DNA of 64,000 nucleotides. It comes from Salvelinus alpinus. Lineage: Eukaryota; Chordata; Actinopteri; Salmoniformes; Salmonidae. Both the position numbers and the translations under genes were made by a program. This document shows, piece after piece, positions 996-60,400 of this stretch (position 1 is its first letter; every line of letters begins with the position of its first letter). Location: positions 22,468,925-22,532,924 of the forward strand of contig NC_092087.1 of assembly GCF_045679555.1 (NCBI RefSeq). The letters run 5' to 3'. The notes under the pieces were generated by a model that was not told the origin of the DNA, searched no databases, and saw only the letters and a program-made list of their open reading frames with translations.

Positions 996-1991
996 AACGG
1001 GATGAATGATGCCATGCTCCAGCAAGGCATGGCAGAGCTCCAAACCCTGGCGCCTGCTCTCTGTCTTTCCATTCTGTAGCAACCAGTCGATCAACTGGCA
1101 GCCAGGGAAGGAGCGCTGGTATGCAACACCCTGCGCCTCCCTTAGATGCAGAATGGAGTCTGACAGTTATTACACTGCAAAACACACCACACACACAAAA
1201 CATGTCACATCCATTTTGCACTCGAGAGACAGAATGAATGGAACAGTTACACACAAACTTGTGTACACAATTGGTAAAGTTGAATGTTTCAGTCCATAAT
1301 CACCAAAACCAGCACATACTGAGAACATTCTGTAATTCAGATGATGTGGCTACCCTTCTTCCTAAGCTAGGCTTGACTTCTTCAAGGGCACCAGTTCCTA
1401 CCAGACAGAGACCCCCAGGGTAAACAAAGTAGTTCTTACTGCTTATACAATCGTTGTCCTTGGATGAAGACCTTGACAGTGTTAAATGGAAATATGTCAT
1501 CATCCTTACGGAAACGGTACAGAAATGTTGCATCCTTGAACATAGGGTACTTGTCACAAACTAAAGAGATCAGAAAGGAAACATTTCCTGAAAATGTTTT
1601 CACATTTCCCTACTTTATAGTTCAGCATTTTGGATCTCCTGTATCAATGTTAGTATATTGGCAAAGCTCCTTGGCTCTTGGTATCCCTGATGTAGGAGGA
1701 AGTGTATAATAGGAGTTGAATATACACTTGGTCCTGTGTCAGGGCTATAGGCTCTTGGAAAAGCTCTTACTGTGCATTTTATATCCCCTTAGAGATGTTA
1801 CTGTGGTGCCCTACAGTACCATGGTGCACAATGTCATGTCCATAAGGTGTTGCATGAGGCAGACCACCGTTGCCCGATCGAGAGCTTCCTTGTGGCTGAT
1901 CAGTCAGTCTGTAAGCTCTTGGGCCACAAAGTAGTTGGGGTAAGTGTGCAGATGGTACAGTCGGTCCTTGATCAGTTTGCCATCATGCAGC
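996..1991 (-). pseudogene. DEPTOR-like (DEP-domain) unprocessed pseudogene, three exon remnants
   Basis: Read on the minus strand, three blocks line up in order with the two DEP domains of DEPTOR, the mTOR-binding inhibitor. Block 1 (1991-1820) contains KLIKDR, HTYPNYFVAQEL, LISHKEA and LMQHL. Block 2 (1560-1440) contains CDKYPMFKD, LYRFRKDD and GQRLY. Block 3 (1174-996) contains LREAQGVAYQRSF, LIDWLLQNGK and LCHALLEHGII. Splice signals remain: donors at 1819 (GTACTG), 1439 (GTAAGA) and 995 (GTGAGA); acceptors before 1560 and 1174. Joining block 1 to block 2 across the predicted sites restores the HV-CD junction typical of the family. Breaks: TGA at 1906-1904 replaces the conserved DEP tryptophan, about one base is missing near 1833, and block 3 is out of frame with block 2 with TAA-TAA at its start. 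Intron retention rules out a retrocopy. The first exon and the C-terminal PDZ part are not seen; downstream sequence is SINE, Tc1, then window edge. Confidence 0.8.
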
Positions 1992-3600
1992 CTCAATGTT
2001 GCAGTGAGATACAATGTACAATTAATCAGCTATAACTAGTATAAGTAGGCAAGGGCACATAATTTTTTTTTATTGAAACATGTATTTAATCAATTTCAGT
2101 TATGACATTTCTGCATGATATATTTTATCTAATATTGTTAGATTTTTTATGGGAAGGTCGGCTGAAGAAAATATGTGACTATCTGAAATGAACTTGTTGG
2201 ATTTCAACACAGTATGTTTCTACAGGTAGCATAACTGTAAAGAAAACCAAGCTTCTCTTTCTCTCTTTCTCTCTCTTCCATACCTCAGTTGTTCTACAGC
2301 AATCATAATTTCCGCCTTGTGCAGTCTGGTCATTGCTTTTATGTTTATGCTGCTTTCCATTTTCTCCATGTTCCTTTACTGACACTGGTCTAAAAAAACA
2401 ACTAATTTCATTAGAAGCCAGTATGTTTACCAAATAACCAGTGCCTAGCTGCAGCCTCTGACCATGTGGGATAGATGTTGTGAGAGAGAGGGAGAGAAAT
2501 CCTGATGGTGTTTAGAATAACTGCAACACTCACATCAATCAGGAGGACACTTGGTTTCTGATGAGGTATTCTCATCAGAATCTGTTCTGCCATGGACAAA
2601 AACAACTTAAGAGGTAGAGAAAGCTATGCCAGACCCTATAACCAAGGGGCCAGACTGAATGGAGGGGGGTATTGAGAACCACAAGCCACCATCATCATAC
2701 TTACTTACTGTGCATGCTCTGTACATTCTGACATTATAAAAAGCCAATATTTAAAAAATTATTAAGGAAAAAATTACAGGGTAGATATCAGACAATGACA
2801 CAACACTAGCTTTCATTCACTGCTCAGTATACTCTGAGGGTCAATAGTGACGTTTTCCTCATATCACCACAAGGGGTCAGCATAGATCTATAAATATACA
2901 ATTTGGCTACCAGAACTCTCAGGAGAAACCCCATAGAAATACAGTTATTTATAATTTACCTATTTCTAACTCTATGGTCCACCCTTTATGCTTGTCCATA
3001 TAATTTAACCAGAAATCAAATAATAACACATACAAGTGGAATATAAATATTTATTTTCAGTGGGCTAGTCATGGACTAGAGAGTATAGGCTATTTGTTTA
3101 TTATGGGTGGTGGTGGATTATTGCAAACGCACAACAGCTCTATTAGAATTATTGAATTGTGTTTTTGCATGATGGACTTCCACTTAAATATAAAGACCAT
3201 TGTCCAAATACAATTGTGACTTTAAAACTGTGATAGTTTTATGTTATTTATATGGAAAGTCAGATGGTAATTTAGTGCGTCTACATTTTTAATAACTAGC
3301 CCTATTGACTATAATATATCCCTGGACATATAGTCTACAGACTAAATATTTAGTCCTCAGATGCTTTGCATTCCAGCATCAGTTCCCTTGTGGTCTTTCA
3401 CAATAAACTATGTTAATACATCAAGTGGTGAGGTAGTGTGTGAGAGAAAGAGAAACATATGCACAAATTAAATAAAGTAGGCCACAGTAGCCTGTAAAAT
3501 GTGTAGTCTACAATATGTCTTTGCAGGTCTATGTAAAAGAAATGTTGGGCATCATTCTACATTCAACCTTTGTTGGATTGTCAAAACGCACACATCAGCT
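1992..3600. other. No gene recognised between the pseudogene and mafb
   Basis: AT-rich sequence with only short open frames. A minus-strand stretch at 2593-2535 reads as a short peptide ending at a GTGAGT donor-like site, but it matches no family I know and does not resemble the DEPTOR N-terminus. Nothing else supportable. Confidence 0.5.
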
Positions 3601-3967
3601 ATTATGCAAATTACCCTTCTCGTCGTCTTTTTATTGGAGAAGAGCAGGGAGGTGTAGTCTATACCGTGTGACATCATGCAACGGTTCTTTATGAAGAAAG
3701 TGCGCTCGCAAGCATAAACCAGGACAGCTACACATATGCAGAGCTTTTGGCCCCGCCGTGGACTCAGAGCACCTTTCTTCTATCCGATTAAGAGGACGGT
3801 TATCTTTCCATTTTTACGCACGCGTGTTTTCACTGTAGATTTAATTTGACGGACTTACTAATTGTATGAAGCGTCTCATCAATAGTGCAATTGTTGCAAA
3901 AGACTGCATGAAAGAATAGAGTTTTGTGCCCCTTGGAAGTGGCCAAGACAAATAGATCCTGGAAAGA
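3601..3967 (+). promoter_or_regulatory. mafb proximal promoter and 5' UTR (approximate)
   Basis: Sequence immediately before the mafb start. It contains an exact octamer ATGCAAAT at 3604-3611 (POU/Oct-type site) and becomes richer in CpG towards 3700-3830, as expected near a transcription start. No clear TATA box. The exact start site cannot be fixed from sequence. Confidence 0.35.
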
Positions 3968-4954
3968 ATGACCGCCGAATCGCATACAAATCTGGGTCTG
4001 CCGAAAACCCCTTTGGGTTATGTCAGTGAGTTCGACTTGATGAAGTTCGAAGTGAAGAAGGAGACAATGCAGGGGATTGATCACTCATTCATTGGGCCGT
4101 GCAGCGAGCTCCAGAGACCGGACTCAGTCTCCTCTACCCCGGTCAGCACCCCTTGCAGTTCGGTGCCATCGTCACCGAGTTTCAATCCGGGTGAGCAAAG
4201 GAACCCTGATGATCTTTACTGGACGCCCAGCAGTGGAGGTTATTCTCAGCAAATGTATCCCCACACTTTTGGCCTGACACCTGAGGACGCAGTGGAGGCC
4301 CTTATCGGTACCACTGTCCACGGGCACCAACCCACTCCGAACGGTCACCAACAGGCTCTCCAAGCAGAATTCGAAGGGTACGGGGCGGCACATAACCTCA
4401 ACGGCCATGTCCAGCAGTACCCTGGACTTATCCGTCAACCCGACGGTCTCTCGGGTCACCCTGATATGCAAGATATGCACTGCCAAAATCAATATCACCA
4501 CAAGCAGGACCTCGACAGCTCGGCTCCGCACTCACCCGACTCCCAGCTTAGTGCGCACCACCTCCATCAGCAGAATCGCCACGACAGACGACTCAACGTG
4601 GAGAGCGCCTTCTCGGACGACCAGCTGGTCTCCATGTCAGTGAGGGAGCTCAATCGGCACTTGAGGGGTCTGACCAAGGACGACATGATGCGTCTGAAGC
4701 AGAAGCGCCGAACCCTGAAAAACCGTGGTTACGCACAATCGTGCCGCTACAAACGCGTTCAGCAGAAACACGTTCTTGAGCACGAGAAGACCAGCCTTGT
4801 CACACAGGTGGAGCAGCTGAAGCACGAGCTCAACCGACTGGCACGCGAGAGGGACGCATATAAACTCAAATGCGAGAAATTGACTGGTTCGAATGGTTAC
4901 CATGAAACTGGGTCTACCAGTGACAACCCTTCCTCGCCTGAATATTTTATGTGA
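3968..4954 (+). CDS. mafb: Transcription factor MafB (large Maf, bZIP)
   Basis: Single-exon gene, 328 residues, close to human MAFB (323). Large Maf proteins bind MARE sites as dimers in the nucleus; MafB patterns hindbrain rhombomeres and drives monocyte/macrophage, podocyte and islet programmes. Visible parts: N-terminal transactivation segment with [11 protein letters not shown] (about 22-32, including the VKKE sumoylation-type site), the Ser/Thr-Pro run [17 protein letters not shown] (55-71; GSK3 targets in large Mafs), [12 protein letters not shown] (103-114), extended homology region (about 214-241), basic region with [20 protein letters not shown] (247-266), leucine zipper (about 268-303) and the family C-terminus ending SSPEYFM. 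The middle has dispersed Gln/His rather than the long His run of mammals. The start is the first ATG in this frame and matches the family N-terminus. Which teleost co-orthologue (mafba or mafbb) is undecided; c-Maf and MafA fit less well, and fam83d/zhx3 linkage supports MafB. Confidence 0.95.
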
Positions 4955-9988: not shown

Positions 9989-12340
9989 CTATAGGGGAGG
10001 GTCTGGGTGGGCATCTAGCCGCGGTGGCGGCTCAGGTGCGGGACGCAGACCCGGCTCCACCTCTGGCTCACCCCACTTTGGTGGCACCTCTGGTGCGGGG
10101 ACCCTCGTTGCCGACCCTGGACTGGGGACCCTCGTTGCGGGCCCCGGACTGGGGACCCTCGTAGCTGGCCCCGGACTGGGGACCCTCATTGCGGGCCCCG
10201 GACTGGGCACCCTCGCTGCGGGCCCCAGACTGGGCACCCTCGTTGCGGGCCCCGGACTGGGCACCCTCGCTGCGGACCCCGGACTGGGCACCCTCGCTGC
10301 GGGCCCCAGACTGGGCACCCTCGTTGCGGGCCCCGGACTGGGCACCCTCGTTGCGGGCCCCGGACTGGGGACCGTCGCTGGAGGCTCCGGACTGGAGACC
10401 GTCGCTGGAGGCTCCGGACTGGAGAACGTCGCTGGAGGCTCCGGACTGGAGAACGACGCTGGAGGCTCCGGACTGGGGACCGTCGCTGGAGACTCCGGAC
10501 TGGAGACCGTCGCTGGAGACTCCGGACTGGAGACTGTCGCTGGAGACTCTGGACTGGGGACCCTCGTTGCGGGCTTCGTGCCATGACTCCTCACTGGAGG
10601 CTTCGTGCCATGGATCAACACTGGAGGCTTCGTGCCATGGATCATCACTGGAGGCTTCTTGCCGTGGATCATCACTGGAGGCTTCGTGCCATGGATCCTC
10701 ACTGGAGGCTTCGTGCCATGACTCCTCACTGGAGGCTTCGTGCCATGGATCAACACTGGAGGCTTCGTGCCATGGATCATCACTGGAGGCTTCTTGCCGT
10801 GGATCATCACTGGAGGCTTCGTGCCATGGATCCTCCCTGGAGGCTTCGTGCCATGGATCATCACTGGAGGCTTCGTGCCATGGATCATCACTGGAGGCTT
10901 CGTGCCATGGATCCTCACTGGAGGCTTCGTGCCATGGATCATCACTGGAGGCTTCGTGCCATGGATCATCACTGGAGGCTTCGTGCCATGGATCATCACT
11001 GGAGGCTTCGTGCCATGGATCATCACTGGAGGCTTCTTGCCATGGATCATCACTGGAGGCTTCTTGCCATGGATCATCACTGGAGGCTTCTTGCCATGGA
11101 TCATCACTGGAGGCTTCGTGCCATGGATCATCACTGGAGGCTTCGTTCCATGGATCATCACTGGAGGCTTTGTGCCATAGATCATCACTGGAGGCTTCTT
11201 GCCATGGATCATCACTGGAGGCTTCGTGCCATGGATCATCACTGGAGGCTTCTTGCCATGGATCATAACTGGAGGCTTCTTGCCATGGATCATCACTGGA
11301 GGCTTCGTGCCATGGATCATCACTGGAGGCTTCGTGCCATGGATCATCACTGGAGGCTTCTTGCCATGGATCATCACTGGAGGCTTCGTGCCATGGATCA
11401 TCACTGGAGGCTTCTTGCCATGGATCATCACTGGAAGCTTTGTGCCATGGATCATCACTGGAGTGAGGAGATGTTTGGGCAGTCTGGTACGTGGAGCTGC
11501 CACAGGGCTCACCAGGCTGGGGAGACATACAGGATGCCTGGTTCTGGCCGCAGGCACAGGACTCACCAGGCTGGGGAGACATACTGGAGGATTGGTTCTT
11601 GGCGGAGGCACCGTATACACTGGGCCGTGGAGGTGCACTGGAGGTCTCGAGCGTAGAGCCTGCACAACCCGTCCTGGCTGGATGGTTATCTTCACCCTGC
11701 ACATGCGGGGCGCTGGCACAGGACGCACTGGGCTGTGCAGACGCACCGGAGACACCGTGCGCAGAGCCGGTGCAGGATATCCTGGGCCGAAGAGACGCAC
11801 TGGACACCACACGCGCTGAGCCGGCACCATCCATCCTGGCTGTATGCTCACCCTAGCCCGGCAGATGCGGGGAGCTGGGATGTAGCGCACCAGGCTGTGA
11901 ATGCGCACTGGAGACACCGTGCGCTCCACCGCCCTAACACGGTGCCTGGCCATTACCACGCTTCTCCCCACGGTAAGCACGAGGAGTTGGCTCAGGTCTC
12001 CAACCTGACTCAGCCAATCTCCTCGTGTGCCCCCTCCCAGAAAATTGGGGGGCTGCCTCTCGGGCTTCCGTGCTAGCCGTGTTCCCTCGTAACGCTGGGC
12101 CCCTTTACTCGCTGCCTCCGCCTTCCTCGATGCTTCCACCTGCTCCCACGGCAGGCAATCCTTTCCGGCCAGGATCTCCTCCCATGTCCAGGATCTTTTG
12201 CCGTCCAGGATGTCCTCCCATGTCCAGTCCTCCTGAAAACGCTGCTCCCCCTTACCACGCTGCTTGGTCCGTTTGTGGTGGGTAGTTCTGTCATGGCCAA
12301 TGCTGGAAGAAGACCAAAGTGCAGCGTGGTGAGCGTACAT
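9989..12340 (-). CDS. Gag-like N-terminus fused to 9-residue repeats (retroelement ORF)
   Basis: Uninterrupted 783-residue frame on the minus strand, starting in the 5' LTR. Residues 38-70 carry a duplicated W-T-W-E-D/E-I-L motif (EDWTWEDILDGK, then WTWEEILAGK and CLPWEQVEA). I associate this with the start of the internal frame of this salmonid LTR family; it is gag-like by position only. A basic, proline-rich segment follows, then about 50 nine-residue repeats (PPVMIHGTK type, then ATVSSPESP and ATRVPSPGP types), then a tail ending DAHPDPPL. No CCHC zinc knuckle, protease or polymerase motifs. Because the repeat unit is 27 bases, all frames in the array stay open, so openness there is not proof of selection. 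The conserved-looking ends are the better argument for a real protein. Function unknown. Confidence 0.45.
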   Translation of the reverse strand: MYAHHAALWSSSSIGHDRTTHHKRTKQRGKGEQRFQEDWTWEDILDGKRSWTWEEILAGKDCLPWEQVEASRKAEAASKGAQRYEGTRLARKPERQPPNFLGGGTRGDWLSQVGDLSQLLVLTVGRSVVMARHRVRAVERTVSPVRIHSLVRYIPAPRICRARVSIQPGWMVPAQRVWCPVRLFGPGYPAPALRTVSPVRLHSPVRPVPAPRMCRVKITIQPGRVVQALRSRPPVHLHGPVYTVPPPRTNPPVCLPSLVSPVPAARTRHPVCLPSLVSPVAAPRTRLPKHLLTPVMIHGTKLPVMIHGKKPPVMIHGTKPPVMIHGKKPPVMIHGTKPPVMIHGTKPPVMIHGKKPPVMIHGKKPPVMIHGTKPPVMIHGKKPPVMIYGTKPPVMIHGTKPPVMIHGTKPPVMIHGKKPPVMIHGKKPPVMIHGKKPPVMIHGTKPPVMIHGTKPPVMIHGTKPPVMIHGTKPPVRIHGTKPPVMIHGTKPPVMIHGTKPPGRIHGTKPPVMIHGKKPPVMIHGTKPPVLIHGTKPPVRSHGTKPPVRIHGTKPPVMIHGKKPPVMIHGTKPPVLIHGTKPPVRSHGTKPATRVPSPESPATVSSPESPATVSSPESPATVPSPEPPASFSSPEPPATFSSPEPPATVSSPEPPATVPSPGPATRVPSPGPATRVPSLGPAARVPSPGSAARVPSPGPATRVPSLGPAARVPSPGPAMRVPSPGPATRVPSPGPATRVPSPGSATRVPAPEVPPKWGEPEVEPGLRPAPEPPPRLDAHPDPPL
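10085..11465. repeat. 27-base minisatellite (about 50 units, three sub-arrays)
   Basis: Three adjoining variants of one 27-base periodicity: about 10085-10374 (CCCTCGTTGCGGGCCCCGGA type), about 10370-10565 (GACCGTCGCTGGAGGCTCCG type) and about 10580-11465 (ATCATCACTGGAGGCTTCGT type, about 33 units). A five-unit (135-base) block starting with GACTCCTCACTGG at 10584 is repeated at 10719, a higher-order duplication. Confidence 0.9.
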
Positions 12341-37926: not shown

Positions 37927-40900
37927 TTAGTGTAAACATCTAGCCCTTGGCCATGTGCCCATGCCCACACTGTCCATCAGCAGGTCAGGGTTATGCCCCT
38001 GCCTCTGCCATTGTCTCCGCTCTTTCTGGGCATTGCATGCTCTGTGCAGCCCGGGCCCCAGGGCCATGTTGGTGAGGTCCACCAGCTCACGGCGGTGGGA
38101 CAGCATGGTCACCATGTGCTCCAGCTTGGAGCGGATGGTGGAGTAGTGATACTGACGCTCTTTGGTCAGCTTGCGGAAGCACTCCCTCAGGTTCCCATCG
38201 GGGGGTGCAGTACAGTGACGGATTGCAGGGCGACGGTCCACCCCATGGGGGGCGAGGTGCTGCCTGGGGGAGGTAGAGACAGAATCTGAGGAGGCAGCTT
38301 CACTCTGAATGTTGTTGGTCTGGGTAGTGGTGCTGGTAATGGGAGTAAATATAGCCTTGTTGGGGGAGAGGTGCTTAGTGTACTGAGTCAGATCAGTCTG
38401 CACTCCAAGGTCCACCGCAGGGCAGCTGGTCTGGGTGGAGACATGGCAGCAGGTAGGGACGGAGGGTGTGACCTGCACATCCACTGCTGATGTGACAGTG
38501 GCAGGGTCACCTGTGGGCAGGCACTGGGCGGCACTTCCAGCCAGGACCTCCTGCATGTGTTGCTGCTCCATCCAGTCTTCCCCTATGGTGGAGGAGGCCG
38601 ACACCGGGCTGCTCTTCCCAGTCATTTCTCTGGAGGGCGGCACTGCCACAGCCTGGGCCCGGCTGGGTGTGCTGGTCAGACAGGCAGTTTTCCCCAATAC
38701 TTCCAGACAGACAGGCTTGACTGGGGACCTCTCTTTGGCCGGCTGAGGGGATGAGGTGACGGGGTGTTTGATGAGGTGGTCGTAGATGCCACTGTTTCGT
38801 GCACTGGCTGGGCCCCTGGTAATAACAGGCATGGACTGGGCGTAAAGAATCCGGAACTCCTCATCAAAGTTCTCAGTGATCTGACCAGACAACTCGATCA
38901 TGTTGCTGCTGTTTAGTTTCCCATCAGTCCAATTGAACCTAAGAATGTAAGCAAAGGGCTTTACAGTTGTATACCCCATATCAGTCAAATAAGGATGGCA
39001 AAGTCACTTACAGCAGCTAGGTTCATACAAGTTGAAAGTATTGAGTGTTTTATAGGCTTTTTGCTCGGGGGTCTTGTAAAAAAAATTGGACATTTTTCAA
39101 TGCTATACTGCATATAATTATGTGGTAGTAAAGCAAGAAGTCTTTACCTGTAGGAGCCTGTAGTCACTCTGTTCCCATCAATCAACATAAACCGTTCATG
39201 AACCTTCCCAGTAATCTTGGCCCCTGACCTCATGAAGTATGTACCACCAGTTATGGTCCGCACTCGCATTTGCTTTGTTGAGGAATGAAACAAAAACTGT
39301 ATGAAATACTGAATTATCATGCTTCTAAATCAGTAATAAAATATCAGCTTATTGGCGATAAGACATGACACACAGGTGGAGTCATAACAACATATACCTT
39401 AAGATCGTCCAGGCGCACATTGATGTTGTTGCACATTTTGAGGAATGCCGGCACACAGGACCAGTCCAGCAGGATGTAGACTGGAACTCTGCGCTGTGTG
39501 CACGCCTCCTGGAGATCCTTAAAGATGTCCAGGTCTGTCAGAGAGTCTGTCACTATGGCGATCACCTGTAATGGTAAATCAAATCATTTGTTAGTCAAAG
39601 CACAATTGATATAGGCCCAGTTTACAATTTAAAAGAGGCTGCTCTTCTGCCTTACTATTTAGGGTCACTCTAAACGGGCTCTTATGCATGCTTGTGCCCA
39701 CAAACCAGGTCTTAATCAAACATTAAGAAGGAGTAAACACTAAGCCGGCTCCTCTATTGGCCACACTCTCTCTGTCGTGTATCTAGATGAGCCTCCCTGC
39801 AGTCAACTGTGGTATGTTGCCATGGCAATCATCTTTAATGCTTGGACTGCAAACAAATGTGTTTCTATGACATGGACAATCTGGACAATCAACAATAACT
39901 CAATAGCTTACAGATCAAGGGCCATTTGGGGCATTTCCTAAATTGTTATTCTGAAACTGATCAACTATAAGGCCTGAAGCAGAGAGTAATTAAATTCCCT
40001 GTAAATACAAAGATGTAACTCAACTCTGATTTCTCCCACTTAGCTGTAAACCAACCTACAGCTCACCTGCACACAGAGGCAGATGACACACAAGGATAAG
40101 CATTAAGAAAAGTGCACACCAACACTATTACATGTGAAAAGCATGTTCAGACACATTCATTAAATGTACTATTACTGTAGGCGCTCCTCTGAACCAGACT
40201 TGGAGTTGAAGCTTTTCATCAATCTCTCCATTCTGGAACGATAACTCATCAGGATGGTAAGGAAACTGCATTAAACTGACAGTTCCAAACACGTCCAGAA
40301 ATGTGTTGAGTTTGAACATGTGACTAACAGGTGTCTTTCTTTCCTCTGACCTTTCAAGTATCTTGTGCTCCTCACATTAGGTGATATAGTTTTCAAAAAG
40401 ACTATCTGTGAATTATAAGAAAATGCAACAGTACTTTAAATATGAGTATTGAGAAGAGCATCACAGTATAAAGGTTCATCCAGACCTCAGAAAGATGTAG
40501 TGTATTCGGAAAGTATTCAGACCGCTTCCCCTTTTCGTTACATTACAGCCTTATTCTAAAGTGGATTAAATATTTTTCCCCTCAATCTACAGACAATACC
40601 CCATAATGACAAAGTGAAAAGACGGCCACTCTTCCTAGAGCTGCCCCCCCCCCCCCCCGACCAAACTGAGCTAACAGAACCCTAGAGGTCCTCTGTTGAG
40701 ATGGGAGAACCATATGTGTAGCACTCCACCAATAAGGCCTTTATGGTAGAGTGGCCAGATTGAAGTCACTCCTCAGTAAATGGTATATTACAACACGCTT
40801 GGAGTTAGCCAAAAGGCACCTAAAGGACTCTCAGACCATGAGAAACAAGATTTTCTGGCCTGAACGCCAAGTGTCACATCTTGAGGAAACCTGCCACCAT

Positions 40901-42426
40901 CCCTATGGTGCATCACGCTGTGGGGATGTTTTTCAGCGGCAGGGACTGGGAGACTAGTCGGGATGGAGGAAAAGTTAAACGGAGCAAAATACAGACAGAA
41001 CCTTGATGAAAACCTGCTCCAGAGCGATCAGGACCTCAATGACCCTAAGCACACAGCCAAGACAACGCAGGAGTGGCTTCGGGACAAGTCTCTGAATGTC
41101 CTTGAGTGGCCCAAACTTGAACCTGATAAAACATCTCTGGAGAGACCTGAAAATAGCTGTGCAGCAACACTCCCCATCCAACCTGACGGAGCTTGAGAGG
41201 ATCTGCAGAGAAGAATGGGAGAAACTCCCCAAATACAGGTGTGCCAAGCGTCATACCCAACAAGACTCAAGGCTGTAATCGCTGCAAAGGTGCTTTAACA
41301 AAGTACTGTGTAAAGGGTCTGAATACTTATGTAAATGTAATATTTCAGTTGTTGCTTTTCTATACATTTCAAAAAATATATATAAAAACCTGTTTTTGCT
41401 TTGTCATTATGGGGTATTGAGTGCAGATTGATGGGGGGGGGGGGGCAATGTAATCGATTTTAGAATAAGGCCGTAACGTAAGAAAATGTGTAAAAAGTCA
41501 ACGTCTGAATACATTCCGAATGCACTGTATAAAGGCCTAGAATACCATCAGTCAGTGACTGAGTGGATGCTTTGGATGGTCACGTTTGAGTAAACAGACA
41601 CACCCAGGGTCAGGAGCCGATTGACTGACTGACTCAAATCAAACAATCAATACGTGGCTGGTATCGTTTGAATTGTACATCTGAGGTGTACAAAATTGAG
41701 TAAAATAGCAAAATGGTTCTTTCCATAGGTTATAGGCCTAGTCCTGAAACAATCTATATCAATAAGGCCGTCATTGTAAATAAGAATTTGTTCTTAACTG
41801 ACTTGCCTAGTTAAATAAAAGGTTCAATAAAATAAATGCACACATTAAACACTGTAGTCTACAGAGCCGACTAAGCTCAACAATTTAGTTGATTTTACTG
41901 TGCTCACCTAGGTGACCATTTTAGTGTTTTGTTAATGTTTTACCTCCTTGGCACTTTGAATCATTCTTCTCGCAGCTTCCTTGCAACTATAGATACATTC
42001 TCCATAACTGGGTTGGAAGTGGGCGACAGCACGAGTGACTCCTCGGTAAGAGCCCGATGTAAAGGCGGGCCAGCCGATTTCCAACAGTGGTGGCTCCACG
42101 TCGGAGACCTCGGGGAAGTAAGTGACGGAGGAGCAGTCCATGGAGCTGCTTACCGACTGTTCAAAAATCACGTCCTCTGCGTGGAGGGACACACAGCGTG
42201 GAACCACCGCAGCACGGCCAATGCGTCTGATCTCGTCATCCGAGAGAAAGTTCGGAATTCTCTCTTTTCTTAGAAATCCCAAAAACGAATCAACTCCACC
42301 TGAAATAAGTTCCTCTAACGCCAGTCGGTGCCTTTCGTTGTATAACTCCTTTACATTCAAATCATTTCCCTGTTTTCTTGACGGCCACCTTACAGGTGAA
42401 TCTTCCAAACATTGCGATAGAGCCAT
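37927..42426 (-). CDS. fam83d: FAM83D, spindle CK1-anchoring protein (4 exons)
   Basis: Four coding exons on the minus strand: 42426-41944, 39565-39398, 39272-39148 and 38938-37927. All have GT donors and AG acceptors in compatible phases, giving 595 residues (human 585). FAM83D brings casein kinase 1 alpha to the mitotic spindle through HMMR and so helps spindle orientation. Visible parts: the FAM83 (DUF1669) domain spans exons 1-4, with [18 protein letters not shown] near the start, [19 protein letters not shown], a degenerate PLD motif [12 protein letters not shown] in exon 3, [17 protein letters not shown] across the exon 3/4 join, and [12 protein letters not shown] (283-294), the region of the CK1-binding phenylalanines. 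The C-terminal half has TQT-type dynein light chain motifs (STQT 426-429, VQT 438-440, TQT 464-466) and the conserved block [20 protein letters not shown] (515-534). The start ATG matches the family N-terminus (MAL). Introns carry a decayed Tc1 (antisense) and a SINE tail. Confidence 0.95.
40498..41531 (+). mobile_element. Internally deleted Tc1-like element in fam83d intron 1
   Basis: The left terminus at 40498 (GTATTCGGAAAGTATTCAGA) and right terminus near 41529 (CATTCCGAATGCACTGTA) are inverted copies. Between them are transposase scraps: [20 protein letters not shown] (40766-40825), [12 protein letters not shown] (about 40910) and [17 protein letters not shown] (41041-41091). Deletions and frameshifts separate these. 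A C-run at 40646-40658 and a G-run at 41433-41445 are additional slippage sites. Orientation is opposite to fam83d. Confidence 0.8.
41764..41838 (+). repeat. SINE 3' tail fragment
   Basis: GGCCGTCATTGTAAATAAGA, then the TTCTTAACTGACTTGCCTAG tail and an AATAAA-rich end: the 3' end of the salmonid SINE type seen at 15165-15418, without its tRNA head. In fam83d intron 1. Confidence 0.75.
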
Positions 42427-52134: not shown

Positions 52135-53634
52135 CAGTGGGGAGAACAAGTATTTGATACACTGCCGATTTTGCAGGTTTTCCTACTTACAAAGCATGTA
52201 GAGGTCTGTAATTTTTTATCATAGGTACACTTCAACTGTGAGAGACGGAATCTAAAACAAAAATCCAGAAAATCACATTGTATGATTTTTAAGTAATTAA
52301 TTTGCATTTTATTGCATGACACACTGCAGCAGGGATTTTGGCCCACTCCTCCATACAGACCTTCTCCAGATCCTTCAGGTTTCGGGGCTGTCGCTGGGCA
52401 ATACGGACTTTCAGCTCCCTCCAAAGATTTTCTATTGGGTTCAGGTCTGGAGACTGGCTAGGCCACTCCAGGACCTTGAGATGCTTCTTACGGAGCCACT
52501 CCTTAGTTGCCCTGGCTGTGTGTTTCGGGTCGTTGTCATGCTGGAAGACCCAGCCACGACCCATCTTCAATGCTCTTACTGAGGGAAGGAGGTTGTTGGC
52601 CAAGATCTCGCGATACATGGCCCCATCCATCCTCCCCTCAATACGGTGCAGTCGTCCTGTCCCCTTTGCAGAAAAGCATCCCCAAAGAATGATGGTTCCA
52701 CCTCCATGCTTCACGGTTGGGATGGTGTTCTTGGGGTTGTACTCATCCTTCTTCTTCCTCCAAACACGGCGAGTGGAGTTTAGACCAAAAAGCTCTATAT
52801 TTGTCTCATCAGACCACATGACCGTCTCCCATTCCTCCTCTGGATCATCCAGATGGTCATTGGCAAACTTCAAACGGGCCTGGACATGCGCTGGCTTGAG
52901 CAGGGGGACCTTGCGTGCGCTGCAGGGTTTTAATCCATGACGGCGTAGTGTGTTACTAATGGTTTTCTTTGAGACTGTGGTCCCAGCTCTCTTCAGGTCA
53001 TTGACCAGGTCCTGCCGTGTAGTTCTGGGCTGATCCCTCACCTTCCTCATGATCATTGATGCCCCACGAGGTGAGATCTTGCATGGAGCCCCAGACCGAG
53101 GGTGATTGACCGTCATCTTGAACTTCTTCCATTTTCTAATAATTGCTCCAACAGTTGTTGCCTTCTCACCAAGCTGCTTGCCTATTGTCCTGTAGCCCAT
53201 CCCGGCCTTGTGCAGGTCTACAATTTTATCCCTGATGTCCTTACACAGCTCTCTGGTCTTGGCCATTGTGGAGAGGTTGGAGTCTGTTTGATTGAGTGTG
53301 TGGACAGGTGTCTTTTATACAGGTAACGAGTTCAAACAGGTGCAGTTAATACAGGTAATGAGTGGAGAACAGGAGGGCTTCTTAAAGAAAAACTAACAGG
53401 TCTGTGAGAGCCGGAATTTTTACTGGTTGGTAGGTGATCAAATACTTATGTCATGCAATAAAATGCAAATTAATTACTTAAAAATCATACAATGTGATTT
53501 TCTGGATTTTTGTTTTAGATTCCGTCTCTCACAGTTGAAGTGTACCTATGATAAAAATTACAGCTCTCTACATGCTTTGTAAGTAGGAAAACCTGCAAAA
53601 TCGGCAGTGTATCAAATACTTGTTCTCCCCACTG
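52135..53634 (-). mobile_element. Near-intact Tc1-like transposon with about 186-base terminal inverted repeats
   Basis: Terminal inverted repeats at 52135-52320 and 53450-53634, each starting CAGTGGGGAGAACAAGTATT when read inward, with TA at both flanks (TA target duplication). I see only a few differences between the repeats. One complete transposase frame lies inside (52289-53266, minus). The element sits in the zhx3 intron. Confidence 0.95.
52289..53266 (-). CDS. Tc1-type transposase (DD34E), C-terminus altered
   Basis: 325 residues, uninterrupted. Two N-terminal helix-turn-helix parts (about 10-50 and 65-115), then the DDE catalytic domain: D153 in WSDETN, a glycine-rich [13 protein letters not shown] (187-198), D244 in [10 protein letters not shown], and E279 in LNPIENLW. 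The D244-E279 spacing is 34, as expected for Tc1. The protein would cut and paste the element at TA sites. The last 10 residues (from H317) are read out of the inner part of the terminal repeat. The family's usual C-terminal tail of about 25 residues after IPAAVC is missing, suggesting a deletion that fused the gene to the repeat. Whether it is still active is unknown. Confidence 0.9.
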
Positions 53635-53927: not shown

Positions 53928-56835
53928 AATCAAATCAAATGTATTTATATAGCCCTTCATACATCAGCTGATATATCAAAGTGCTGTACAGAAACCCAGC
54001 CTAAAACCCCAAACAGCAAGCAATGTAGGTGTAGAAGCACGGTGGCTAGGAAAACTCCCTAGAAAGGCCAAAACCTAGGAAGAAACGTAGAGAGGAACCA
54101 GGCTATGAGGGGTGGCCAGTCCTCTTCTGGCTGTGCCGGGTGGGGATTATAACAGAACATGGCCAAGATGTTCAAATGTTCATAAACGACCAGCATGGTC
54201 AAATAATAATAATCACAGTAGTTGTCGAGGGTGCAACAAGTCAGCACCTCAGGAGTAAATGTCAGTTGGCTTTTCATAGCCGATCATTGAGAGTATCTCT
54301 ACCGCTCCTGCTGTCTCTAGAGAGTTGAAAACAGCATGTCTCGGACAGGTAGCACGTCCAGTGAACAGGTCAGTATCCATAGCCGCAGGCAGAACAGTTG
54401 AAACTGGAGCAGCAGCACGGCCAGGTGAACTGGGGACAGCAAGGAGTCATCATGCCAGGTAGTCCTGAGGCATGGTCCTAGGGCTCAGGTCCTCCGAGAG
54501 AGAGAAAGAAAGAGAGAATTAGAGAGAGCATACTTAAATTCACACAGGACACCGGATAAGACAGGAGAAATACTCCAGATATAACTATCCCCCCGACACA
54601 TAAACTACTGCAGCATAAATACTGGAGGCTGAGACAGGAGAGGTCAGGAGACACTGTGGCCCCATCCGATGATACCCCCGGACAGGGCCAAACAGGCAGG
54701 ATATAACCCCACCCACTTTGCCAAAGCACAGCCCCCACACCACTAGAGGGATATCTTCAACCACCAACTTACCATCCTGAGACAAGGCCGAGTATAGCCC
54801 ACAAAGATCTCCGCCACGGCACAACCCAAGGGGGGGCGCCAACCCAGACAGGAAGACCACGTCAGCGACTCAACCCACTCAAGTGACGCACCCCTCCTAG
54901 GGACGGCATGGAAGAGCACCAGTAAGCCAGTGACTCAGCCCCTGTAATAGGGTTAGAGGCAGAGAATCCCAGTGGAGAGAGGGGAACCGGCCAGGCAGAG
55001 ACAGCAAGGGCGATTCGTTGCTCCAGAGCTTTTCCGTTCACCTTCACACTCCTGGGCCAGACTACACTCAATCATATGACCTACTGAAGAGATGAGTCTT
55101 CTGTAAAGATTTAAAGGTTTGAGACCGAGTCTGCGTCTCTCACATGGGTAGGCAGACCATTCCATAAAAATGGAGCTCTATAGGAGAAATCCCTGCCTCC
55201 AGCTGTTTGCTTAGAAATTCTAGGGACAATTAGGAGGCCTGCGTCTTGTGACCGTAGCGTACGTGTAGGTATGTACGGCAGGACCAAATCGGAAAGATCG
55301 GTAGGAGCAAGCCCATGTAATGCTTTGTAGGTTAGCAGTAAAACCTTGAAATCAGCCCTTGCCTTAACAGGAAGCCAGTGTAGGGAGGCTAGTACTGGAG
55401 TAATATTAAAAATTGTTTCTAGTCAGGATTCTAGCAGCCGTATTTAGCACTAACTGAAGTTTATTTAGTGCTCTATCCGGGTAGCCAGAAAGTAGAGCAT
55501 TGCAGTAGTCTAACCTAGAACAAAAGCATGGATACATTTTTCTGCATCATTTTTGGACAGAAAGTTTCTGATTTTTGCAATGTTACATAGATGGAAAAAA
55601 GCTGTCCTTGAAACAGTCCTGATATGTTCGTCAAAGGAGAGATCAGGGTCCAGAGTAACGCCGAGGTCCTTCACAGTTTTATTTGAGACAACTGTACAAC
55701 CATCAAGATTAATTGTCAAATTCAACAGAAGATCTCTTTGTTTCTTGGGACCTAGAACAAGCATCTCTGTTTTGTCCGAGTTTAAAAGTAGAACGTTTTT
55801 AGCCATCCACTTCCTTATGTCTGAAACACAGGCTTCTAGCGAGGGCATTTTTGGGGCTTCACCATGTTTCATTGAAATGCACAGCTGTGTGTCATCCGCA
55901 TAGCAGTGAAAGTTAACATTATGTTTTCGAATGACATCCCCAAGAGGTAAAATATATAGTGAAAACAATAGTGGTCCTAAAACGGAACCTTGAGGAACAC
56001 CAAAATTTACAGTTGATTTGTCAGAGGACAAACCATTCACAGAGACAAACTGATATCTTTCTGACAGATAAGATCTAAACCAGGCCAGAACTTGTCCGTG
56101 TAGACCAATTTGGGTTTCCAATCTCTCCAAAAGATGGTGGTGATCGATGGTATCAAAAGCAGCACTAAGGTCTAGGAGCACGAGGACAGATGCAGAGCCT
56201 CGGTCTGACGCCATTAAAAGGTAATTTACCATCTTCACAAGTGCAGTCTCAGTGCTATAATGGGGTCTAAAACCAGACTGAAGCATTTCGTATACATTGT
56301 TTGTCTTCAGAAAGGCATTGAGTTGCTGCGCAACAGCTTTTTCAAACATTTTAGAGAGGAATGGAAGATTCGATATAGGCCGATAGTTTTTTATATTTTC
56401 TGGGTCAAGGTTTGGCTTTTTCAAGAGAGGCTTTATTACTGCCACTTTTAGTGAGTTTGGTACACATCCGGTGGATAGAGAGCCGTTTATTTTGTTCAAC
56501 ATAGGAGGGCCAAGCACAGGAAGCAGCTCTTTCAGTAGTTTAGTTGGAATAGGGTCCAGTATGCAGCTTGAAGGTTTAGAGCCCATGATTATTTTCATCA
56601 TTGTGTCAAGAGATATAGTACTAAAACACTTGAGTGTCTCCCTTGATCCTAGGTCCTGGCAGAGTTGTGCAGACTCAGGACAACTGAGCTTTTGAGGAAT
56701 ACGCAGATTTATTTTGCTTTCTAATGATCATGATCTTTTCCTCAAAGAAGTTCATGAATTTATTAGTGCTGAAGTGAAAGCCATCCTCTCTTGGGGAATG
56801 CACTAGGCATTACAGAGAGAGATATTTTTTTTAAT
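53928..56835 (-). mobile_element. L2/CR1-like LINE, 5'-truncated
   Basis: Minus-strand element with 3' tail of ATTTGATTTG units at 53928-53940. The reverse-transcriptase frame 56601-55510 keeps [56 protein letters not shown] and the catalytic [10 protein letters not shown], so the palm is intact. A one-base frameshift near 55515 separates it from [20 protein letters not shown] and the C-terminal domain (to about 54900). Reading upstream of 56601 continues the ORF ([14 protein letters not shown]) to about 56810, where the copy is truncated beside an A/T run. No endonuclease domain. Inactive but fairly well preserved. Confidence 0.9.
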
Positions 56836-57435: not shown

Positions 57436-60400
57436 ATGGCCAGCAAGAGGAAGTCAACAGTGCCCTGTATGATCACATCCAAAAGCAAACACATGCGTGA
57501 GGAGATCATACTTGGCTGCCTTCCTGAGCTCCTACCCACAATCCCAGAGGACAGCATCCTCAGTATATCTGGAGAAGACAGAGGCCATTTCTCCCATGAT
57601 TCCTCCAGACCTGAAAGGGGCGACAAATGGCAGAAAGGTAGCACATACAGCTGCCCACCCTGCCGCTTTGAGTCCAGAGAGCTGAACTACTTTTTGGACC
57701 ACCTGCACAACTGCCACATAGACTTCAGGGCCCAACCCAGCTTCTCCTGCCTGAACTGTGGCGTGTCAGTGGTCAGGTTTGAGGCCCTGGCTCTGCACAA
57801 TGCTAAAGCCCACCCTGGGGTGTCAGGGGGCTCTGTCTACGCTTCCCTGCATGTCAGGAAGAGAGATGGTGCGACCACCGTAGAGCAGAGCCTGTTCACG
57901 ACCAATGGGGAGGACTCGCGCGAGACTGCAATCTTCCTCACTAAAACACCTATAGTGAGGGTGATGAAGGCCAAGGGAGAGCACAAGAAGATTGTGGTCT
58001 CCCACACAGTGGAGGTGCGGAGGATAGACACTGGGAAGAAAATGGAGCGGACAGACCCCACCATGTTGACGAATGTGCCTGAACTACAAAATGGGTCTCT
58101 CAGTGGGACCGGTGGTGCTGCTATGTTGAGAAACCCTGTCACTCATGTGATAACAACAGTGCCCAATCAAACCTATCACCAGCACAGCTCTCCCACCTTC
58201 TCCTCCTCGGATTCCAGCAAAAACCTTCCAAAGGTGATGATTCCCCTGAGCAGCATCCCCACTTATGATGCTGCCATGGACACCAGTAGCTTTCTCAAGA
58301 CTTCCTTTGGTAAGTTCCCCTACCCGACCAAAGCTGAGCTCTGCTACCTGACTGTGGTCTCTGATTGGCCAGAGGAGCAGATCAAACTGTGGTTCACTGC
58401 CCAGAGACTCAAACAGGGGATCAGCTGGTCCCCCGAGGAGATAGAGGAGGCCAGGAGGAAGATGTTCAACACGGTCTTCCAAGGAGCAGCACCCCAAAAA
58501 CAGCCCCCCAAGCAACGGCACACAAATCACATTGTGACCCATCACACTGTCCATGCCCAGCCTGCTCCAGTGGGCCCCAGCCACCAGGCTGCCAAGGTGA
58601 CCCATGGCAGTGTAGTGAGCAGGCATACTGGAGTCATATCCACTTCGGCTAGCATGTCAGCCGCTGGTCACCCGGTCACCACTAGGGTCTCTTATGCTAC
58701 CCCAACCATGATCCCCCCAAAATATCAGACTGTAGTCAGCAGAACAACACAGGTAGTGGCCAGGAACACTATCCCCACTACTGTGGCCAGCCAGGAGTCT
58801 GACAAGACTGTTGCTCTGAGGCTGGGCAACAGTTGTGTCATTAGCACCAGCGGCAGAAGCAGCAGTAACAGTAGTAGTTGCAGTAGCAGCAGCAGTAACA
58901 GTAGTAGTTGCAGTAGTAGCAGCAGCATCAGTAGTAACTCCTCCATCAGTAGTAACAGCAGGGACCATGGCACTAGGAAACCAATGAACAACATCAGTTC
59001 CAGCAACAGCATTGTCAGTTGCTCCTCCAACATTGGCAACAAAGATGACTGTAGCACTGACAGCCATGACAAACCAAACAATCAAAGCAGCAGACATATT
59101 AGCATTGCATCTGTCTTGGAAGGCTTCAGCAACAGCAGCAACAAAGGTAAAGTGATCATGAGTAACACCAGCAAATCTAACGTTATCGCCTATAACATTC
59201 ATAGCAATGGCAACACAGCTAACCAGGATCAGTACACATCAACAAAGAACGATGATGACAGTAACAACAACAATATCCACAAGTCCAACAATGGCAATTT
59301 TAGCAGTGGCTACTCCAGCACTAGAAATAATGATAGTGTCAACAACCTGAACCTTGCCAGCAAAGCCCAAATTGAAAACACCAGCATCAGTGTCATTACC
59401 AAAAGCAGCAGTAGCAGCAACAGCATATCTATCATTAAGGATGGCAAATGCATCAAGGAGGTTCCTATGAAAGCTATATCAGTCTTGCGGCAGCTTATCA
59501 AAGAGGAAGACCATTTTGGGGACGACAGAACCTGCCCTGAACTAAAAGTTGACCCCATCAAGATCAACCTGCAGAGGCTCATGGTGAGCGATCCAGCTGC
59601 CAAACCTGGTTCAGAGGCCTTCCCTCCAGAGCTCAAGTCTGAGACACATGTCTCAGACCTGTCACACCCATCCAAGAAAAGCCCCCAGCAGGTACACCTT
59701 TTGAGGCTGGCATTCACCAGCACACGGTGGCCCAGCAGCCAGCAGTATGAGGAGCTGAGTATCATGACGGGCCTGCCAAATCCAGAGGTGGTCCGCTGGT
59801 TCAGCGACAGCCGCTACATCCACCAGAATGGCCAACTGAAATGGCTGGAGGGCTACCAGTGCCTACCTGTAGAGGGAGAGGAGGGAAAGGGCCACAGAGA
59901 CTCTGAAGCACTGATCAATCCCCAGGAGGTTAATAGGAAACTAGTGGAGCAGGAGGTGAACAAGCAGCTTAATGAAGGACCTAAGGAGCTCCACTCAGGG
60001 CAGCTGGGATTCTGGTGGGGCGCAGACACACAGAAGCCACTGCTGAGTCCAACAGAGCCAGAGGAGACTGGGGAGAGAGGGAGAGCTGTGGAGACAGAAG
60101 GACTACATGGTCACTGGGCAGAGAGGGAGGATGACCACCCTCAGCCGGTTAGCAGCCAGGCCTTTGGGGAGAAGCAGGCAGAGGCCAGGTGAGTTCTATC
60201 AGTTACCGTTGTCTACTGAAAATGACTCAATCTGTGATCACCCCATACCTTCATGGAATGTATATGTTAGGTCAGTTGTTTACTTGTCAGACTCTTTGAG
60301 ACTGATGATGATTTTTCAAAAGTTAATATTGCTCCTTGGCCATAACAGAATGTCAAACACTATACTGTTGATTTCTACAGTAGCTATATATTGTTCTGAA

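Follow-up and report, generated by a model that had tools for sequence, protein, structure and literature searches.

A decayed DEPTOR paralogue beside mafb and its intact twin in the genome of Salvelinus alpinus

The window analyzed in this study is a stretch of 64,000 nucleotides (C2:22468925-22532924) within the 2.37-Gb genome of Salvelinus alpinus, and positions given without a contig name are counted from its start. It carries mafb as an intact open frame on the plus strand at 3968-4954 (bZIP_Maf 3.1e-33, Maf_N 3e-13), which is oriented head-to-head with the fossil gene described below. Further along, fam83d-like exons were found on the minus strand at 37927-42426 in two pieces (37927-38988 and 41932-42426; SACK1 7.2e-10 and 3.9e-33), followed by a zhx3-like gene on the plus strand at 57436-60192 with a ZHX-type zinc finger (zf_C2H2_ZHX 1.9e-20) and homeodomains. 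The "d" in the label of the SACK1-domain exons and the "3" in the label of the ZHX-type gene are our assumptions. Three further open frames lie on the minus strand. The one at 9989-12340 (783 aa) consists mostly of a tandem MIHGTKPP-type repeat with several frames open and looks like a minisatellite. At 52289-53266 a transposase frame of the Tc1/Sleeping-Beauty type (325 aa) was observed, and at 55510-56601 a reverse-transcriptase frame (363 aa, RVT_1 1.4e-36), which is probably LINE-like.

Left of mafb, the minus strand of the window carries four exon remnants, E1 (2369-2284), E2 (1997-1820), E3 (1560-1440) and E4 (1174-998), which together encode a broken DEP1-DEP2 region. A previous sequence-only reading of the stretch had recognized E2, E3 and E4 in place and missed E1. 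Identities in the following refer to the exons of the intact copy on contig C12. The 86 nt of E1 match exon 1 at 89.5% without gaps and retain the ATG and the donor gtatgg. E2 holds most of DEP1 (91.6%, exon 2). Its acceptor AG was changed to AC, the GT after it is kept, with a small insertion at the donor, and one base was deleted near 1839/1838, causing a frameshift. The in-frame TGA of E2 (1906-1904, minus strand), already noticed in the sequence-only reading, is real and occupies the position of a conserved DEP1 tryptophan, which is present in C12, in the canonical gene on C4 and in human DEPTOR. E3, encoding the end of DEP1 and the linker to DEP2 (90.9%, exon 3), has an open frame, both splice sites intact and a 3-nt in-frame deletion. 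E4 contains most of DEP2 (91.0%, exon 4) with its acceptor cag; here a 2-nt deletion near the 5' end shifts the frame and the donor GT became TT. Two frameshifts were found where at least two had been proposed, and the claim of surviving splice sites stands for the E1 donor, the GT after E2, both sites of E3 and the E4 acceptor, but fails for the E2 acceptor and the E4 donor.

Six of the nine exons were matched in total. Exons 5, 6 and 7 remained without a match (E up to 0.01) when 25 kb of C2 were searched on the minus strand. Exons 8 and 9 lie outside the window, approximately 2.8 kb to its left (about C2:22466099-22465848), and are damaged: the exon 8 acceptor is lost, the exon 9 acceptor is shifted by one base, and three deletions (7, 6 and 12 nt) were observed. 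Former intron 4 harbors a dispersed repeat (720-957) with four partial copies elsewhere in the window. It is absent from the C12 intron, with which its flanks are collinear. Exon skipping as a way to rescue the gene was examined via the reading phases and dismissed, given that exons 5-7 are missing from these 25 kb.

For the assignment to a protein family, E1-E4 were joined into one protein query with X at the stop and at the frameshifts. Query residues 6-173 of 175 matched human DEPTOR with an E-value of 3.5e-59 (203 bits), in agreement with the DEPTOR-like coding capacity suggested earlier, and Pfam recovered two tandem DEP stretches from the same reading (E=9.4e-28). Searched singly, E4 passed the Pfam DEP cutoff (9.6e-13) and E2 remained slightly under it (1.7e-7, 31.5 versus 32.7 bits), with no Pfam DEP match for E1 and E3. 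In view of the E-values of the joined query for DEPTOR and for Pfam DEP, and of a locus with 85% identity on another contig, a chance match is ruled out. What lies next to mafb is a DEPTOR paralogue that has decayed but still contains introns.

The second locus became visible when a 996-base stretch of the fossil was compared with the whole genome. Only two matches were obtained, the stretch itself and C12:15114458-15115434, the latter with 85% DNA identity. The sequence-only reading had proposed to inspect the ohnologous chromosome for an intact two-DEP/PDZ gene, and such a gene was indeed found there (C12:15115868-15113021). Its 9 exons are separated by 8 introns, all of them GT-AG, and form an open frame of 408 aa; the gene is called deptor2 throughout the paper. 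Its protein aligns with human DEPTOR over almost the full length (E=1.2e-142, residues 15-406 to 29-407). Pfam detected two DEP domains and a PDZ domain (PDZ_6 1.7e-9) and nothing else, and an in-frame stop directly upstream of the ATG marks a free-standing DEP-DEP-linker-PDZ protein. The counterpart of the PDZ domain in the fossil is the damaged exons 8-9 beyond the window. C2 and C12 align collinearly across exons (705 of 771 aligned bases identical) and introns (660 of 784 bases). Introns, disabling lesions and an intact sister gene in a collinear block are the features of an unprocessed pseudogene from a genome-duplication pair, and all of them were found here. With high confidence we regard the fossil in the window as the 5' half of such a pseudogene, the dead twin of the living paralogue deptor2 on C12. 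Judged by open frame, splice sites and omega, the C12 copy is apparently functional. An automatic annotation of this intact gene may well exist. In a literature search of titles and the beginnings of abstracts, which had most subscription papers and the genome databases outside its range, none of the matches listed named a second DEPTOR gene; in the paper joining deptor, paralog and teleost, DEPTOR occurs solely in the reference list. The available sections of the structural papers speak of a single vertebrate DEPTOR (PMC8439649, PMC8439657).

Selection was analyzed on 251 codons from E1-E4 and E8-E9; 7 of 258 codons were left out, five misaligned ones in exon 7 and two at the end of exon 4. 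Between fossil and C12 copy a dS of 0.146 and a dN of 0.070 were obtained, a ratio of 0.48 (bootstrap 0.29-0.85), which was also found with all 258 codons and hence is unchanged by trimming. The distance in the four introns was 0.178 (784 bases, microsatellite left out). The two proteins differ at 38 amino acids, 37 of which were scored against the outgroups human and C4, the remaining one falling into a gap in an outgroup. A total of 21 changes were assigned to the fossil branch and 5 to the C12 branch, with 11 ambiguous (two-sided p 0.0025). Using only sites where human and C4 agree, 18 changes fell on the fossil branch versus 4 on the C12 branch. Omega of the C12 branch was estimated at approximately 0.15-0.18 (0.05-0.36 across the interval tried), and the neutral share of the fossil branch at 0.54-0.69 (point estimate; 0.24-0.85 across the interval tried). 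Because of the branch counts, omega and neutral-share estimates, the C12 gene looks to be under purifying selection and the fossil looks long dead, with a rough date.

Other origins of the fossil were weighed against these data. The high exon identity would agree with the fossil being either a processed retrocopy that has degraded or a segmental copy recently derived from C12. However, the introns are present and aligned, as the sequence-only reading had argued for a decayed gene and against a retrocopy, and mafb, fam83d and zhx3 were duplicated alongside in unchanged order, so that we give this origin hardly any weight. Equally improbable is a decayed tandem of the PREX type. PREX1 and PREX2 are Rac exchangers with tandem DEP domains followed by a PDZ-like region, distantly homologous to deptor2, and they were the next-best matches of the fossil query. 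PREX1/2 rank behind DEPTOR, however, with at most 80 bits versus 203 for the fossil (PREX2: 2.4e-21, 79.8 bits), and the margin over other DEP families is also large for the C12 protein (479 versus 132.8 bits), which stands free with its own upstream stop and contains only DEP and PDZ domains. The lesions were read from the assembly and might be assembly errors in a live gene. Several independent lesions, lost splice sites, three exons not found and the excess of amino acid changes on the fossil branch (21 versus 5) stand against this, and we consider it very improbable, if marginally less so than the two other origins.

On both C2 and C12, the twin loci are embedded in a block whose genes follow each other in identical order and orientation, namely deptor2 (-), mafb (+), fam83d (-) and zhx3 (+). 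At the protein level, the C12 copies agree to 93% for mafb, 88% for the second fam83d-like piece and 86% for zhx3. The start codons of deptor2 and mafb face each other at a distance of approximately 1.6 kb in the window (2369 to 3968) and approximately 1.5 kb on C12. A promoter region common to both genes is possible. A genome search for zhx genes (25 matches) placed the zhx3-like genes approximately 55 kb (C2) and 66 kb (C12) from deptor2. More mafb and zhx3-like genes are located on C17 and C30, yet none of the 30 deptor matches fell there. From the canonical-type deptor loci to a zhx-type gene the distance is approximately 0.9 Mb on C4, 0.11-0.13 Mb on C26 and 0.13-0.15 Mb on C29. The zhx-type genes near these three loci are far less similar to zhx3, and we infer that they are of the zhx1/2 type. 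In human, 8q24 carries DEPTOR, ZHX1 and ZHX2, and 20q12 carries MAFB, ZHX3 and FAM83D.

The canonical deptor of this genome lies on C4, has 9 exons and shares 78.4% identity with human DEPTOR. In two genome searches for DEP, considering the best-scoring candidates only, 9 of 9 and 11 of 16 matches were located on C2, C12 and C4; the other 5 matches of the second search were weak and fell on C10, C14 and C20. At C26:11045446-11044576 (-) and C29:38163868-38164761 (+) only exons 6-9 of canonical-type deptor were observed, covering linker and PDZ. Their splice sites are intact, the frames open, and dN/dS between both is 0.32 (145 codons). No DEP exon was found within approximately 24 kb upstream of each, nor did the genome searches yield one, and the two loci may represent DEP-less DEPTOR genes.

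The C12 protein is 55.6% identical to human DEPTOR and 54.4% to the C4 protein, and the phases of the exon junctions agree between C4 and C12. That deptor2 sits with mafb, fam83d and zhx3, and canonical-type deptor with different zhx genes, suggests a duplication early in vertebrate history, although the rooted tree is unstable. Most likely, deptor2 arose when a block was duplicated early in vertebrates, an event by which zhx3 and zhx1/2 were separated as well. Rooted with PREX, the trees placed C4 outermost (96/94 in one, 89/86 in the other) and did not group it with human. The AU test did not reject a human plus C4 clade (p 0.107 and 0.173) and only marginally disfavored a duplication confined to fish (p 0.0405 and 0.0502). 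A teleost-specific (3R) duplication of canonical deptor draws on this instability, which leaves the older split unproven by topology. Human and C4 are, however, 78% identical to each other versus 56% and 54% to C12, the clade of fish copies only is the one disfavored in the AU test, deptor2 lies next to zhx3 and mafb and the canonical-type loci next to other zhx genes, and C26 and C29 look like later duplicates of canonical deptor. We therefore consider the 3R origin unlikely and favor the early vertebrate duplication. A late genome duplication, which we take to be the salmonid one from the genome size, the doubled blocks and the repeat types, then produced the two deptor2 copies on C2 and C12. 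On C12 the gene was preserved, and purifying selection apparently acts on it. On C2 it lost its function and decayed via the stop, the frameshifts, splice-site losses, the loss of exons 5-7 and the repeat insertion, leaving a fossil without function as a protein gene.

According to the available sections of two structural studies, the PDZ domain of DEPTOR binds the FAT domain of mTOR, linker plus PDZ form the minimal inhibitory unit with the DEP domains increasing inhibition, the PDZ domain alone mildly activates mTOR, and mTOR phosphorylates a degron in the linker, which leads to degradation via betaTrCP (PMC8439657, PMC8439649). The order DEP-DEP-long linker-PDZ is common to deptor2, human DEPTOR (DEPDC6; PDB 7owg/7dkl/7ped) and the C4 protein. 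Most of the mTOR-contact motifs compared are retained in C12, namely VGWGF (338-342, PDZ) and CNPKS (304-308, linker), both shared with DEPTOR; the PDZ interface at 358-362 is altered from SGPAA to GSPAA. Beyond the identity of about 55%, the mafb/zhx3 locus and the dead copy in the window, deptor2 differs from DEPTOR in its linker. The phosphodegron SSGYFS, treated here as a regulatory and not a homology-defining feature, is absent from C12, where HASGYL stands in register, and C4 has SSGYYS. The fossil exon that would carry it was not found in the 25 kb of C2. Linker Ser/Thr are sparse in C12 (13 in 107 residues) versus human (30 in 96) and C4 (25 in 96), and SP/TP occur once versus six times in each of the two others. 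The living C12 protein would bind mTOR via PDZ and linker, acting as a brake like DEPTOR, and would escape removal via the SSGYFS phosphodegron. With most contact motifs kept and the degron and most linker Ser/Thr lost, deptor2 is predicted to be a degradation-resistant mTOR brake, a prediction to which we assign about an even chance.

Tentatively, and with less confidence than in that prediction, a broader picture may be drawn. Vertebrates would at one time have possessed two DEPTOR genes, owing to an early genome duplication, and the one head-to-head with mafb would live on in fish as an mTOR brake poorly phosphorylated and destroyed via mTOR, and thus outside the mutual antagonism of DEPTOR and mTOR. 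The DEP-less linker-PDZ copies on C26 and C29 would possibly be weak or opposite regulators. With mafb, deptor2 and zhx3 linked on one side and deptor and other zhx genes on the other, these loci offer a clear example in which gene loss following genome duplication can be traced. A second, degron-less DEPTOR, if true, would show that this lineage coped with losing one of two copies of an mTOR inhibitor while its twin was retained, and would provide a natural test of the weight of phosphodegradation in mTOR control.
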